Positions 15,028 to 58,696 of a stretch of DNA of 64,000 nucleotides are shown in pieces (position 1 is the stretch's first letter; each line of letters opens with the position of its first letter). This DNA comes from an uncultured Mucilaginibacter sp. (GTDB taxonomy: Bacteria > Bacteroidota > Bacteroidia > Sphingobacteriales > Sphingobacteriaceae): the NCBI RefSeq assembly GCF_903893715.1, contig NZ_CAITNG010000081.1:1-64000 (forward strand), given 5' to 3'. The notes below the pieces were generated by a model that worked only from the letters and a program-made list of their open reading frames with translations, made no database searches and was not told the origin of the DNA. Position numbers and translations under genes: made by a program.

Positions 15028-15678
15028 TACTTTTATTTTGTTGAACTACAAATAAACCAAATATGTTGGACTTAACAACAATCCGCCAATTCAAAATTCA
15101 GTAACAATTTAGGTATCTAACATTTTTCAGCCCCCCAAGCAGGGGGGAAAAAGTAAGATATATTTCACAAATCTATCCATCATCCTCACTGACAAATTTT
15201 CCAATGACTTAATGACCCAATGATCAATGCCTTACACAGGGGGAAAAAGTAGGAAATATTTCACAAATCCATCCATCATCCTCTCTAACAAATTTTCCAA
15301 TGACTTAATGGCCCAATGACTAATCCTTCACACCGGGGGGGATTTTGTAAGAAATATTTCACGTCTGTCTATCCTTATTCTTTGCTCCTTATTCTTTATG
15401 CAAAACTATACAAGGTACAAAAAATCGCCTGTATTTCCAAAAAAGCAACCAAATCCGCAACAAAAAAAAGGAGCATTCATCATATTTTTTTGTCCTGCCG
15501 CAGTCATTTAGTCCTCAATCGTTCTTCAAACAGCGATTTACCAAACAATCCAAAACCTCACAGTTAATATATTTTCTTTTTTTTTAAAAATTCATCATAT
15601 TTTTTAACTAACTTTATAACATAAACGCCCACTGCCGGTCCCTTTTTCCGGATTACAACTGCTCTTTAAATCCCCGTT
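15028..15678. other. Intergenic stretch with tandem repeats, no gene seen
   Basis: About 650 bp between divergent genes. The middle (15141-15362) is a tandem repeat described separately. From 15440 on it is A/T-rich with long A- and T-runs and no recognisable coding sequence. An 83-codon open frame at 15316-15567 crosses the repeat and looks spurious. Confidence 0.7.
15141..15362. repeat. Tandem direct repeat, about 97 bp unit, 2.3 copies
   Basis: Unit A runs about 15141-15237, unit B about 15238-15333, and a partial third copy about 15334-15362. Each begins with a G-run followed by AAAAAGTAAG-like sequence, TATTTCACAAATC, CATCCATCATCCTC and ACAAATTTTCCAATGACTTA. Corresponding points are offset by 96-98 bp. 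Inside each unit is a smaller octamer-like repeat built on AATGACTT, AATGACCC and AATGATC. Confidence 0.85.
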
Positions 15679-48283: not shown

Positions 48284-48815
48284 TCTTTTTGCGTCATTAA
48301 ATCATTGGGTCATTTAGTCATTCCCCAAACGCCGACGGCTGCAAAGATAAAAACACATGGGTAAATATGGGTACATTAAAAAAACACATCTTCCGTCTTC
48401 CTCCCGATGGCTATCGGGATTACATCTTCCATCTTATCACATGGGTATTTATGGGTATGTGTAATGTGTTCCCGATAGCTATCGGGATGAGCGGATGTCA
48501 GCCTGCCGGCTGGCAGGTGCCAATATATAAATGCTTTTGACGCTTTGCGCCATGCGCTACGCGCTTTGCCAAACTCATGGGTATTTATGGGTATCTTTCA
48601 AAGAACAATTTGCTCGCCGGTAGATTTGACAACTTTTTAAAAGTTGTCAAATCTTTGGAGGCTATGGGTAAATATGGGTATTCTATAACAATAATTTCCA
48701 TCAACTCACCGCTCACTACTCACCACTCACCATTCGATACAATATAAGAAAAATCTGTTGCATTTGGAAATACCAATCATAAATAACTATATTTATAGTT
48801 ATAAACCAATCTTTC
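48284..48815. repeat. Intergenic mosaic of short interspersed repeats
   Basis: 532 bp without a gene. From left to right: four octamers GTCATTAA/ATCATTGG/GTCATTTA/GTCATTCC (48293-48324); ATGGGTA pair 1 (48357-48373); palindrome CCCGATGGCTATCGGG (48403-48418); pair 2 (48441-48457); palindrome CCCGATAGCTATCGGG (48471-48486); CCTGCCGGCTGGCAGG (48502-48517); a CGCTTTGCGCCATGCGCTA repeat (48541-48570); pair 3 (48577-48593); a 15-bp-arm hairpin (48623-48653); pair 4 (48664-48680); CTCACC/CTCACT repeats (48705-48732). The last 80 bp hold AACTATA-TT-TATAGTT (48785-48800) just before the next gene. Confidence 0.8.
48623..48653. repeat. Perfect hairpin with 15-bp arms
   Basis: GATTTGACAACTTTT and its exact reverse complement AAAAGTTGTCAAATC flank a single T. 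No gene ends near it, so it is more like a small mobile palindrome than a terminator. Confidence 0.8.
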
Positions 48816-55573: not shown

Positions 55574-55684
55574 AGTTCATAGTTGATGGTTCATAGTTCA
55601 TAGTAAAAGGGAAGCTTATTCGTAAAAGAATTGCGTACCCCCAAAACTTCTTACCATGAACCATGAACTATGATCTATGAACTT
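55574..55684. repeat. Inverted repeat of the GTTCATAGTTCAT family
   Basis: The left arm (55574-55604) is built from GTTCATAGT units and the right arm (55650-55684) from CCATGAAC and ACTATGA units, so the two are imperfectly complementary. Similar units appear again to about 55734 before the second RDD gene. Confidence 0.6.
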
Positions 55685-55763: not shown

Positions 55764-56450
55764 ATGGACAACGAATACTATATTTTAGAATCGGGCCAAA
55801 AAATAGGGCCATTTACCCCGCAGGAGCTGATGGACCGGCCGCTGGAGCCCGACGACCTGTTGGTGATGCCCTTGCAAAACCAAGGCACCGAGGCGCACCT
55901 GCTGCCCGAGTTTAAGCAGTATTTCATCGACGAGGGTATTTATTACCCTATGCCCGAAAATACGGCCAGCTACTTTTTACGCCTACCGGCTTATATTATC
56001 GATTTTATCATCATTGTATTTGGTACCGAGATATTGGCTTTTATACTTTTCCCGGGATACATGAGCCGTTTAATGGGCGTTTTTACATTAAGCGCTCTCA
56101 CCGACCCTAAGTTGCAGGAAAACCTATTGAAGCACCAAACCGAAATCATCATCATCCAACTGGTGGTTTTTGTGGTTACTGTTCTATACAATTCGCTTTG
56201 CGAGGCCGGCCGTATGCGCGGCTCGGTTGGCAAATATATTTTGGGACTGGCTGTGGTAGATGGTTTGGGTTATGGCCTAACCTTCTGGCATGCGTTAAGG
56301 CGGAACCTCGGTAAAACTATATACGAAGTTTTGGGCCTTATCATCGGCCCGCTTTCCTACCTGGCTTATATGAAAATCATCTGGTCATTCCGCCATCAAG
56401 CCATTCACGACCAGTTGGCTGGTTGTTTTGTGGTGAAAAGGAGTAAATAA
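55764..56450 (+). CDS. GYF_2-RDD membrane protein (second of two)
   Basis: A 228-residue relative of the previous gene: GYF_2-like start (EYYILESGQKIGPFTPQELM), then an RDD domain with about four membrane segments (LRLPAYIIDFIIIVFGTEIL, IIIQLVVFVVTVLYNSLC, FWHALRRNLGKTI) and the ending HQAIHDQLAGCFVVK. RDD proteins usually carry a conserved Arg and two Asp; the RLPAYIIDF region and HDQLAG are candidates. It is weakly coupled to the first copy by position only. Confidence 0.82.
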   Translation: MDNEYYILESGQKIGPFTPQELMDRPLEPDDLLVMPLQNQGTEAHLLPEFKQYFIDEGIYYPMPENTASYFLRLPAYIIDFIIIVFGTEILAFILFPGYMSRLMGVFTLSALTDPKLQENLLKHQTEIIIIQLVVFVVTVLYNSLCEAGRMRGSVGKYILGLAVVDGLGYGLTFWHALRRNLGKTIYEVLGLIIGPLSYLAYMKIIWSFRHQAIHDQLAGCFVVKRSK

Positions 56451-56523
56451 GAACCGAAATATTGCGGTAGCCATATTAGTGGAAAGCAAGTAACGAGGAT
56501 ATGAAATGCCCACAACATTTTTA

Positions 56524-56579
56524 GCCACTAAGACACAAAGTCTCGAATTGACAAGCTTAGTCCTTTGTGCCTTCGTGGC
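56524..56579. repeat. Interspersed inverted repeat upstream of ispG
   Basis: GCCACTAAGACACAAAG and, 22 bases later, CTTTGTGCCTTCGTGGC form near-complementary 17-base arms (15 of 17). This is the widespread ACTAAGACACAAAG intergenic repeat type, lying before the ispG promoter. Confidence 0.65.
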
Positions 56580-56639
56580 AACACAAAGTTTTGAAAATAA
56601 ACTTTACGTTCATCCAACCAACAAAAGCTTCCGAATACC

Positions 56640-56665: not shown

Positions 56666-58696
56666 ATGGATGCCGAAGCGATAAAAGCCCTCAAAGGCCG
56701 TTACTGTAACTCACTAACAGAATACTCCCGTTTTAAAACCCGCGAGGTATTTATTGGCGATGTGCCCATGGGTGGCGATAACCCCATCCGCATCCAAAGC
56801 ATGACGACCACCAATACGCTGGATACTTTGTCCACGGTAGAGCAAAGCATCCGGATGATCAATGCCGGTTGCGAATATGTGCGCATTACTGCGCCAAGCA
56901 TAAAAGAGGCCCAAAACCTGGCCGACATAAAAAAAGAGTTGCACAAACGCGGCTATAAAACGCCCCTGGTTGCCGATATACACTTTACCCCCAACGCCGC
57001 CGAAGTGGCCGCCCGCATTGTGGAGAAAGTGCGGGTAAACCCGGGCAATTATGCCGATAAAAAGAAATTCGACCAGCTGACCTATACGCCAACAGAGTAC
57101 CAGGCCGAACTCGAGCGTATCTATAAAAAATTCGCGCCATTGGTTAAGGTTTGCAAGGAGTATGGCACGGCCATGCGCATTGGCACCAACCACGGTTCGC
57201 TGAGCGACAGGATCATGAGCCAGTACGGCGATACGCCGCGTGGTATGGTGGAGTCGGCAATGGAGTTTATGCGTATGTGCGAGGATATGAATTATTATAA
57301 CCTCGTTATCTCGATGAAGTCGAGCAACCCGCAGGTAATGGTGCAGGCCTACCGTTTATTGGTAGAAACCATGGTTGCCGAAGGTATGAACTATCCGCTT
57401 CATCTCGGCGTTACCGAAGCCGGCGATGGCGAAGACGGCCGTATCAAATCGGCAGTGGGGATCGGCACCTTACTGGAAGATGGCCTCGGCGATACCGTAC
57501 GTGTATCCCTAACCGAAGAACCCGAATACGAAATACCGGTTGCGCAGGCTTTGGTTAAACGTTATGTTGAGCGGAAAGCGAAAAGCACAAAGCACAAAGC
57601 GGAAGAAAAGCTTTCAGCTTTCGGCTTTCAGCTTTCGGCTCACAATCCCTACGAATACCAAAAACGCGAAACCTACGAAGCAAACGCCTTCATCGGCGGG
57701 CATATGGTGCCAAGGGTGGTGGTCGATCTGTCGGCCGCAAACCTGAAAGACCCCGCTGTGTTGAGCGATGCAGGGTACCTATATAGTGCCTTGCTGGATA
57801 AATATAACATGGCCGAGCAATCGGTCGATTTTGTGTACCTGGGCGATGCTTTGCCCTCGTTTAATTTCCCCGGTAATTTAAAGCAGTTGTACAATTATAA
57901 AACCTGGCAAACATTGGCCAATAAAACACTTTGCCACCCGGTTTTTGAATTGAGTGAATACGTCGGCGAAAGCCAAAAAGACCATGCCTTAAATTTGGTG
58001 CGCGTCAAACCTTCGGATATTGAAACAGCCGATTTTGGTGCTTTGCCATTGGATAAAACGCTTGTTTTTGTTTTAGAAACCGATGCCCTTAACGGGATGC
58101 AGGACCAACGCGCTTTCTTCTTCAAAATGGAAGAACTGGGTTTGGATGTGCCTGTCATCATCAAAAGGACCTACCCGGCAACTGAATTTGATCTCAGCAA
58201 AACCGGCGATATCACCAGCCCCGAAGAGCCGGTATCAAAACTACAGCTTTTTGCCGCTACCGATATGGGTGCTTTATTGGTGGATGGTTTTGGCGATGGC
58301 ATTTGGATAGATGCCCCATCCGTGCCGGCCAAAATAATTACTTCCACCGCTTTCGGCATTTTGCAGGCCACTCGTTCGCGCATATCAAAAACAGAATACA
58401 TATCCTGCCCCAGCTGCGGCCGTACCCTGTTCGACTTGCAGGAGACCACCCAAATGATCCGCAGCCGTACCAGTCACCTCAAAGGTTTAAAAATAGGCAT
58501 CATGGGCTGCATCGTAAACGGTCCCGGCGAAATGGCCGATGCCGATTACGGCTATGTAGGTGCAGGCCCTGATAAGATAACGCTGTACCGTGGTAAGGAA
58601 GTGGTGCAAAAAAACGTGAGTTCGGCCAATGCCTTGGATGAGTTGATTGGTATTATTAAGGATGATGGGAATTGGATAGAGCCAAGCGAAAGCTAA
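56666..58696 (+). CDS. ispG: 4-hydroxy-3-methylbut-2-enyl diphosphate synthase, long (three-domain) form
   Basis: The 676-residue product is the three-domain IspG found in plants and Bacteroidota: an N-terminal TIM barrel (PIRIQSMTTTNTLDT, VADIHFTP, RVNPGNYADK, MRIGTNHGSLSDR), an inserted second barrel (about 330-570), and a C-terminal [4Fe-4S] domain with CPSCGRT, GCIVNGPGEMADADYG and GPDKITLY. It makes HMBPP in the MEP isoprenoid pathway. Between barrel one and the insert, residues about 302-325 are an in-frame repeat-derived segment (KAKSTKHKAEEKLSAFG-like) not expected in the family. Its stop overlaps the convergent next gene by a few bases. Confidence 0.95.
   Translation: MDAEAIKALKGRYCNSLTEYSRFKTREVFIGDVPMGGDNPIRIQSMTTTNTLDTLSTVEQSIRMINAGCEYVRITAPSIKEAQNLADIKKELHKRGYKTPLVADIHFTPNAAEVAARIVEKVRVNPGNYADKKKFDQLTYTPTEYQAELERIYKKFAPLVKVCKEYGTAMRIGTNHGSLSDRIMSQYGDTPRGMVESAMEFMRMCEDMNYYNLVISMKSSNPQVMVQAYRLLVETMVAEGMNYPLHLGVTEAGDGEDGRIKSAVGIGTLLEDGLGDTVRVSLTEEPEYEIPVAQALVKRYVERKAKSTKHKAEEKLSAFGFQLSAHNPYEYQKRETYEANAFIGGHMVPRVVVDLSAANLKDPAVLSDAGYLYSALLDKYNMAEQSVDFVYLGDALPSFNFPGNLKQLYNYKTWQTLANKTLCHPVFELSEYVGESQKDHALNLVRVKPSDIETADFGALPLDKTLVFVLETDALNGMQDQRAFFFKMEELGLDVPVIIKRTYPATEFDLSKTGDITSPEEPVSKLQLFAATDMGALLVDGFGDGIWIDAPSVPAKIITSTAFGILQATRSRISKTEYISCPSCGRTLFDLQETTQMIRSRTSHLKGLKIGIMGCIVNGPGEMADADYGYVGAGPDKITLYRGKEVVQKNVSSANALDELIGIIKDDGNWIEPSES
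57571..57640 (+). repeat. AAAGC/GCTTT repeat element inserted in frame in ispG
   Basis: The first half is built from GCGGAAAGC, AAAAGC and ACAAAGC units and the second from GCTTTCAG and GCTTTCGG units, so the halves are complementary and could form a hairpin. About 70 bp; the reading frame of ispG is kept. This GCTTTCAGCTTTC repeat type is common in intergenic regions of related genomes. Confidence 0.7.

Follow-up and report, generated by a model that had tools for sequence, protein, structure and literature searches.

Dispersed short repeats probably keep rewriting permissive loops of IspG and valyl-tRNA synthetase in Mucilaginibacter

In Mucilaginibacter, dispersed heptad and palindromic repeats probably overwrite a small number of permissive loops in housekeeping enzymes again and again, subject to a filter that keeps the reading frame open; we give this reading a probability of about 0.78. 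The genomes of this genus carry many short dispersed repeats, mostly intergenic. Some are arrays built from a 7-nt unit (such as AAAGCNN, AAGTCNN or AAAGGNN), in many cases with two arms that complement each other; others are GC-rich palindromes, among them a ~80-bp element. Such repeats would recurrently enter a linker between domains of IspG (site 1), a loop in the second domain of the same enzyme (site 2) and, in valyl-tRNA synthetase (ValS), one further loop, with each incoming repeat replacing the earlier loop sequence in place. IspG and ValS are presumably essential. Because these enzymes are needed, only in-frame, stop-free versions would persist, so that the loop would be rewritten while the core is conserved. 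The repeat found in the window, a stretch of 64,000 nucleotides on contig 81 of the source genome (G000), would be the present site 1 version of its species and was presumably supplied by the dispersed repeats of the same genome. At the molecular level, a repeat may be inserted into an old array or copied there by template switching, after which the old units are lost, and the effect on the enzyme is probably near neutral.

The ispG gene and its heptad element

The long-form ispG gene (gcpE) lies at positions 56666..58696 of the forward strand of the window. Its open frame runs unbroken through the repeat element from a GTG at 56567 to the stop at 58696, and translation more likely starts at the ATG at 56666, as read from the sequence. 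The encoded protein is a long-form IspG with a full-length match to IspG models: it matched TIGR00612 with 466 bits (E 9e-140), above the curated cut-off of 280, PRK00366 with 392 bits (cut-off 345), Pfam GcpE with an E value of 1e-125, and NCBIfam PRK02048 over positions 3-612 of a 613-position profile with 738 bits (E 1e-221), below the cut-off of 886 for that model. The segments CPSCGR and MGCIVNGPGE, with a putative role in 4Fe-4S catalysis, were invariant across 31 aligned sequences, and the closest relative among the matches listed was M. rivuli (IspG identity of 89%).

Site 1 is the repeat-coded, variable inter-domain linker VERKAKSTKHKAEEKLSAFGFQLSAHNPYEYQKRE (57566..57670, forward strand), which corresponds to residues 304-338 counted from 56657. 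The heptad element within it extends on the same strand from GAGC to GCTC (57569..57642, ends read by eye) and forms a hairpin, with a left arm of four AAAGCNN units at 57575..57600 and a right arm of four GCTTTNN units at 57610..57635, both also on the forward strand. Tandem Repeats Finder called both arms with a period of 7. As RNA, the element folded into a single regular hairpin of AAAGC:GCUUU stacks split by 2x2 internal loops, so that five bases of each heptad are paired and two are unpaired; its folding energy is -35.5 kcal/mol (z -4.1), and none of 200 shuffles did as well. Together with the period-7 calls and the genome-wide count of the unit given below, this places the element far outside what chance would produce. 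Site 2, the second-domain loop TYPATEFDLSKTGDITSPEEPVSKLQLFA (58169..58255, forward strand), has an ancestral, non-repeat form in the window. Between the preceding gene and ispG, at 56520-56600, we observed another repeat-like stretch (actaagacacaaag ... ctttgtgccttcgtggc), which by eye resembles an imperfect inverted repeat.

The initial annotation had described an in-frame repeat of intergenic type that joins the first barrel of IspG to its inserted domain, with flanking motifs intact and probably tolerated as a linker. The location and in-frame reading were confirmed from the sequence, and the type and setting of the repeat agree with our results, while the proposed bounds of 57571-57640 were slightly too narrow given the GAGC and GCTC ends. 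The idea of a tolerated linker is in line with an AlphaFold2 model built on a 31-row alignment (mean pLDDT 73, pTM 0.72), in which the first barrel was predicted at residues 45-314 and confidence fell below a pLDDT of 50 at residues 313-326, within site 1. The same model predicted site 2 as a loop between a strand at residues 500-505 and a helix at residues 525-542. Given low confidence near residues 571-640, domain packing was not used. The best Foldseek matches were GcpE/IspG structures, over the first barrel.

Loop sequence across the genus

Of 149 Mucilaginibacter genomes, 143 gave an ispG match in a protein search; 130 loci were taken from these, together with 40 loci from other genera of the family. 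Site 1 could be extracted from 126 of the genus loci and from all 40 others; the four exceptions were two repeat-carrying loci (L016 and L056), one frameshifted locus (L085) and one on a contig that ends early (L088). A repeat label was assigned to site 1 in 114/126 genus loci, while the same rule labelled 0/629 length-matched windows of the core and, after shuffling, 0.5% of the linkers. The labels were AAAGG (35 loci), AAGTC (24), CTCAC-type (14), AAAGC (11), GC-rich palindrome (11), CCATGG (10), AATCAAG (8), ATCTCA (1) and none (12); judged from these loci, the repeat family at site 1 differs between species. Sequence identity within site 1 was 0.46 at lag 7, 0.41 at lag 14 and 0.37 at lag 21, while lag-7 identity was 0.23 in the core and 0.29 in the linkers of g16, g4, g15, g18, g20 and g7. 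Outside the genus, labels were restricted to 8/40 loci (five from g21 and one each from g10, g15 and g25). The initial annotation had named conservation of the segment in non-repeat codons among relatives as evidence against a captured repeat; within the genus, the linker was instead repeat-coded in all but 12 of the 126 loci, in many families, while outside it 32/40 linkers had no repeat label.

The comparison demonstrated fixed sites, filled with repeats whose families differ in close relatives, and it changed the interpretation of the window segment in several respects. The linker is also present in relatives without a repeat, measuring 27-29 residues in the five repeat-free g16 loci and 34 in the window by the same rule, so that the difference amounts to 5-7 residues and not to the roughly 24 extra residues proposed initially. 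The two nearest tree relatives of the window species (L010 and L011) carry other units at site 1, and AAAGC is therefore the window species' own within that group. A single capture event, also proposed initially, does not accommodate a site that was repeatedly rewritten: on the ispG tree, the genus rows call for no fewer than 67 changes of label. Nor is the segment an addition: the repeat appears to replace an older linker, and ispG has a second such site and valS another.

Some further observations concern individual linkers. The palindrome CCCGATAGCTATCGGG occurred inside the ispG linker of two loci from different genera, L086 (G135) and L246 (G251). In L085 (G121), a near-complete draft otherwise, ispG was split over two frames, the break lying at site 1 or immediately behind it; this could be a genuine break or an error of the draft. 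The ispG matches on contig 218 of G107 and contig 552 of G094 stopped near site 1 (query residues 346 and 333, respectively), perhaps at assembly breaks caused by the repeat.

Site 2 is a loop of 28-29 residues between the VIIKR and LQLYA motifs, and was found in 147/166 loci; once over-long extractions were dropped, 116 genus loci were counted. The form SYPxxEFxGPxGDxMxPEEPxSK was present in the extracted loci of g4, g15, g16, g19 and g22, and a similar, ancestral-type loop was present in six genus members (G000, which holds the window, G050, G058, G028, G041 and G093). In the other 110 of the 116 loci the loop was replaced, in 70/110 with a repeat-family label and in 40/110 without one, and examples of replacements include ESESPEVGKSES (AAGTC heptads), DHGPSTMDHG (CCATGG) and KVSPTGGDLEGA. 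These counts follow the wider rule for the ancestral form (6 ancestral and 110 replaced); a narrower rule missed three of the six, which sit among its 43 unlabelled rows and likewise among the 113 site 2 rows classed as repeat for the lag-7 work. Given that the ancestral form was retained in few members and replaced in the rest, the ancestral loop was probably lost in most of the genus, largely to repeats.

Turnover was also apparent between close species. On a FastTree tree of loop-free IspG cores, in which 65 of 163 inner branches were below 80, the genus rows required a minimum of 67 label changes at site 1 and 60 at site 2, while ten shuffles were listed at 75-82 and 63-70, respectively. 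Given that these values lie just under the shuffled ranges, the labels are nearly, yet not wholly, scrambled on the tree. Among pairs with a core identity of at least 98%, site 1 DNA was less than 60% identical in 6/18 and site 2 DNA in 8/16. G026 and G122, for example, had cores 98.5% identical and differed in both loops: the former carried AAAGG and AAGTC heptads at the two sites, and the latter a GC-rich element at both. Two families were mixed at site 1 in 15/126 loci, and these mosaics look like what would be expected of swap intermediates. From this comparison of species, we infer that loops are replaced.

The phenomenon extends to a second gene, which ruled out an oddity of ispG only. 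In the source genome, valS (L348:2636-5314, contig 73 of G000, minus strand) has in-frame heptads in an internal loop before the EEDVVDTW motif, with AAAGC heptads followed by ATGAACT/ATTAACT heptads. ValS was found in all 46 genomes searched. Thirty loci were taken, 11 of which fell outside the extraction rule, and lag-7 arrays (AAAGC, GACTC, CAACT-type or AATCTCA units) were present in 10 of the 19 extracted loops, several of the others being shorter and without an array. In G050, a near relative of the window's genome, the unit differed from that of the window's genome in both ispG and valS.

Origin of the repeats and competing explanations

The genome search proposed in the initial annotation found the strict AAAGC triplet AAAGCNNAAAGCNNAAAGC 67 times in the 4.02-Mb source genome. 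The AAGTC pattern occurred 13 times and the AAAGG pattern was absent, and the reversed-pattern control gave 0 for each of the three; a looser AAAGC pair pattern gave 163 matches compared to 51 for its reversal. All six source-genome arrays with at least four units were without a spanning frame of 150 aa. Of seven further matches to the window element in this genome, six had no stop-to-stop frame through them, and the seventh (L005) lay within a 491-aa stop-to-stop frame, probably upstream of the gene start. Two-unit AAAGC matches under long frames (L259, L260, L261, L266, L270, L275 and L281) were set aside as single pairs rather than arrays. A search of the source genome for a close donor of the window element found none, the best match being 77% identical over 78 nt.

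Across 452 kb of the source genome, a sample that includes the window and for which contigs were partly picked for holding matches, we detected eight lag-7 arrays, while none of eight other lags gave more than one array. Six of the eight lay outside ORFs, even though ORF coverage was 88%, and the two inside were those of ispG and valS. Similarly, 9/10 lag-7 arrays lay outside ORFs in 400 kb evenly spaced along the complete genome G023; the tenth was rejected as an in-gene case, as it lay within an ORF but upstream of the part matching GMP synthase. The same G023 stretches (L319-L338) held 14 lag-8 arrays beside the ten lag-7 arrays, and two of 12 distinct array rows in this genome (L299 and L311) fell under stop-to-stop frames of 183 and 216 aa. 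Elsewhere in the window, heptad arrays of AGTTCAT and ACCATGA were observed just upstream of the ORF at 55764 (55574-55604 and 55653-55682), an array with the unit ACTCACC, a type used in the ispG linker of other species, at 48704-48732, and 2.3 tandem copies of a 96-bp unit, with 85% matching, at 15143-15362.

The unit at site 1 was associated with the genome's own repeat repertoire. After exclusion of 52/126 loci without a clear unit among AAAGC, AAGTC and AAAGG, the site 1 unit was the genome's commonest of the three in 50/74 genus loci, compared to a permutation expectation, with kinship ignored, of 30.3 and a maximum of 42 in 10,000, and in 48/74 after ispG's own copies were subtracted. 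By class, the match came mostly from AAAGG (35/37), with 6/12 for AAAGC and 7/25 for AAGTC; raw AAGTC counts were not significantly higher in the AAGTC class (p 0.16), while shares were higher in all three classes. A joined query made from four site 1 segments that hold either the GC-rich element or a mosaic with CCATGG, run on six genomes, gave at least 40-51 matches in five of them and 12 in the sixth, and most of the matches listed fell on the ~80-bp element. Copies of this element at site 2 of the same genome's own ispG were 87-94% identical in G014, G039 and G122, and in G014 the ispG element had a 94% copy outside ispG.

Stop-carrying heptads are depleted on the coding strand. Among heptad pairs from genus sites 1 and 2, which are non-independent, a stop was present on the coding strand only in 22, on the other strand only in 83, on both in 44 and on neither in 114, while the corresponding numbers in a small intergenic sample, where strand is arbitrary, were 20, 15, 17 and 39. 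Given that 7 is not a multiple of 3, three units cross all frames, and a stop-bearing unit is thus barred in any phase.

Birth of the arrays in place, from local sequence by slippage and point mutation rather than from repeats elsewhere, would agree with the missing close donor for the window element, and heptad arrays in principle slip easily. We nevertheless consider this origin improbable, as the ~80-bp ispG element in G014 is non-periodic and has a dispersed counterpart in that genome at 94% identity, and the heptad follows the genome repertoire in the 50/74 loci above. That one intergenic repeat was captured once and recently, adding ~24 residues to the IspG of the window species, is highly improbable: while the element is real, in frame and of intergenic type, and the nearest two relatives carry other units, this idea is contradicted by the relatives' linkers, which hold repeats of many families throughout the genus and are just 5-7 residues shorter in repeat-free g16. 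Homologous recombination between species could instead import ispG tracts with a foreign loop, in which case repeats would enter coding DNA rarely and then spread. The site flanks are conserved enough to recombine, and similar loops, such as KVSPTGGDLEGA, occur in relatives that are not nearest to each other. However, in eight close pairs DNA identity was about as high right beside the sites as is usual for the gene, dipping only slightly in some pairs, and G026 and G122, whose DNA adjoining the sites was at most slightly less similar than the remainder, differed at both sites although the stretch that separates these is ordinary; we therefore regard such exchange as unlikely.

A hairpin in mRNA or DNA might also be selected at the domain boundary, for example as a translation pause while the first barrel folds, and the unit might then vary since only structure matters. 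In addition to the strong fold of the window element, site 1 linkers folded better than their own shuffles (mean z -2.33, n = 126; AAAGG class -4.17), while outgroup linkers did not (-0.10, n = 19). Against this, 60 core segments had a z of -1.44, the CTCAC-type and AATCAAG classes of site 1 reached only -0.19 and -0.85, and 110 site 2 loops -0.72. Segments with an 8-mer and its own reverse complement were no commoner at site 1 (0.44) than in the core (0.52), and genera without the repeat have the same enzyme without a hairpin repeat. Thus, a conserved hairpin as the function was rejected and a required hairpin is unlikely; selection for such a structure seems to us quite improbable, and hairpins accompany intact two-arm elements. 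We accordingly favour recurrent replacement by dispersed repeats under an open-frame filter. More tentatively, a process not yet recognised in Mucilaginibacter and some relatives might write, and rewrite in place, arrays with a changeable 7-nt unit, even inside internal loops of housekeeping enzymes, a possibility to which we give a rather low probability.

Known repeat systems and implications

In-frame repeats are already known, and the rapid turnover of repeat families at fixed internal sites seems to be a novel variation on them. Rickettsia palindromic elements, in the part of the report considered here, are short dispersed palindromic repeats of 105-146 bp with 12-bp terminal inverted repeats, found between genes and in frame in conserved protein genes (19 reading frames), and a guanylate kinase that carries one is still active (PMC2229807). 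The window repeat is likewise dispersed, with 67 strict AAAGC triplets and intergenic copies in the same genome, and palindromic, with a stem-loop z of -4.1, a property that is not general for sites 1 and 2 across the genus. Compared by description, the ispG loops differ in that arrays of many kinds of 7-nt unit fill the same loop across species; recurrent swapping at one site is not described for the Rickettsia elements in that part of the source (PMC2229807).

The TAACTGA heptamers of Beggiatoaceae, cyanobacteria and some Bacteroidetes are, in the sections of the source used here, tandem 7-nt repeats of one unit sequence that are mostly intergenic; those within reading frames mainly affect protein termini or hypothetical proteins, and stop-containing orientations are argued to be barred from reading frames (PMC4679880). 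The ispG arrays share the tandem 7-nt units, and g21 linkers, the only ones among labelled loci with CAGTTAT-type units, use the related unit CAGTTAT; the window's own units are AAAGCNN and GCTTTNN and not TAACTGA. Unlike the ispG loops, the TAACTGA heptamers show no unit turnover at one internal site in those sections (PMC4679880). The ~80-bp element, like REP-type palindromes and MITEs, is a dispersed, short, GC-rich palindrome, and we placed it in neither class; nor did we class the window element, whose GAGC and GCTC ends were read by eye, as a MITE. Cyanobacterial heptanucleotide hairpin repeats (STRR, including those of the P6b loop of the tRNA-Leu intron) are also 7-nt-unit hairpins that vary between strains; to our knowledge, they reside in an RNA intron or between genes and not in a protein-coding loop. 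Among the titles and abstracts listed by searches of the open-licence PMC literature, there was no report of repeats in IspG or of in-frame heptads in this family, nor of a genus in which many repeat families take turns at fixed internal loops of core enzymes.

These results call for caution when genes are annotated or structures predicted, as such linkers would be repeat-derived rather than conserved features. How short heptad repeats move and change their unit in bacteria, and how far loops of core enzymes tolerate rewriting without loss, become questions open to test, for which site 2 offers a natural before-and-after series, ancestral in the window's group and swapped in most others. Should the unrecognised rewriting process exist, sites 1 and 2 of IspG, together with the loop of ValS, would keep a natural record of it and exemplify an ongoing, non-homologous replacement of loops in core proteins. 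Across more than 100 species, intergenic repeats would act as a steady supply of new loop sequence for housekeeping enzymes.
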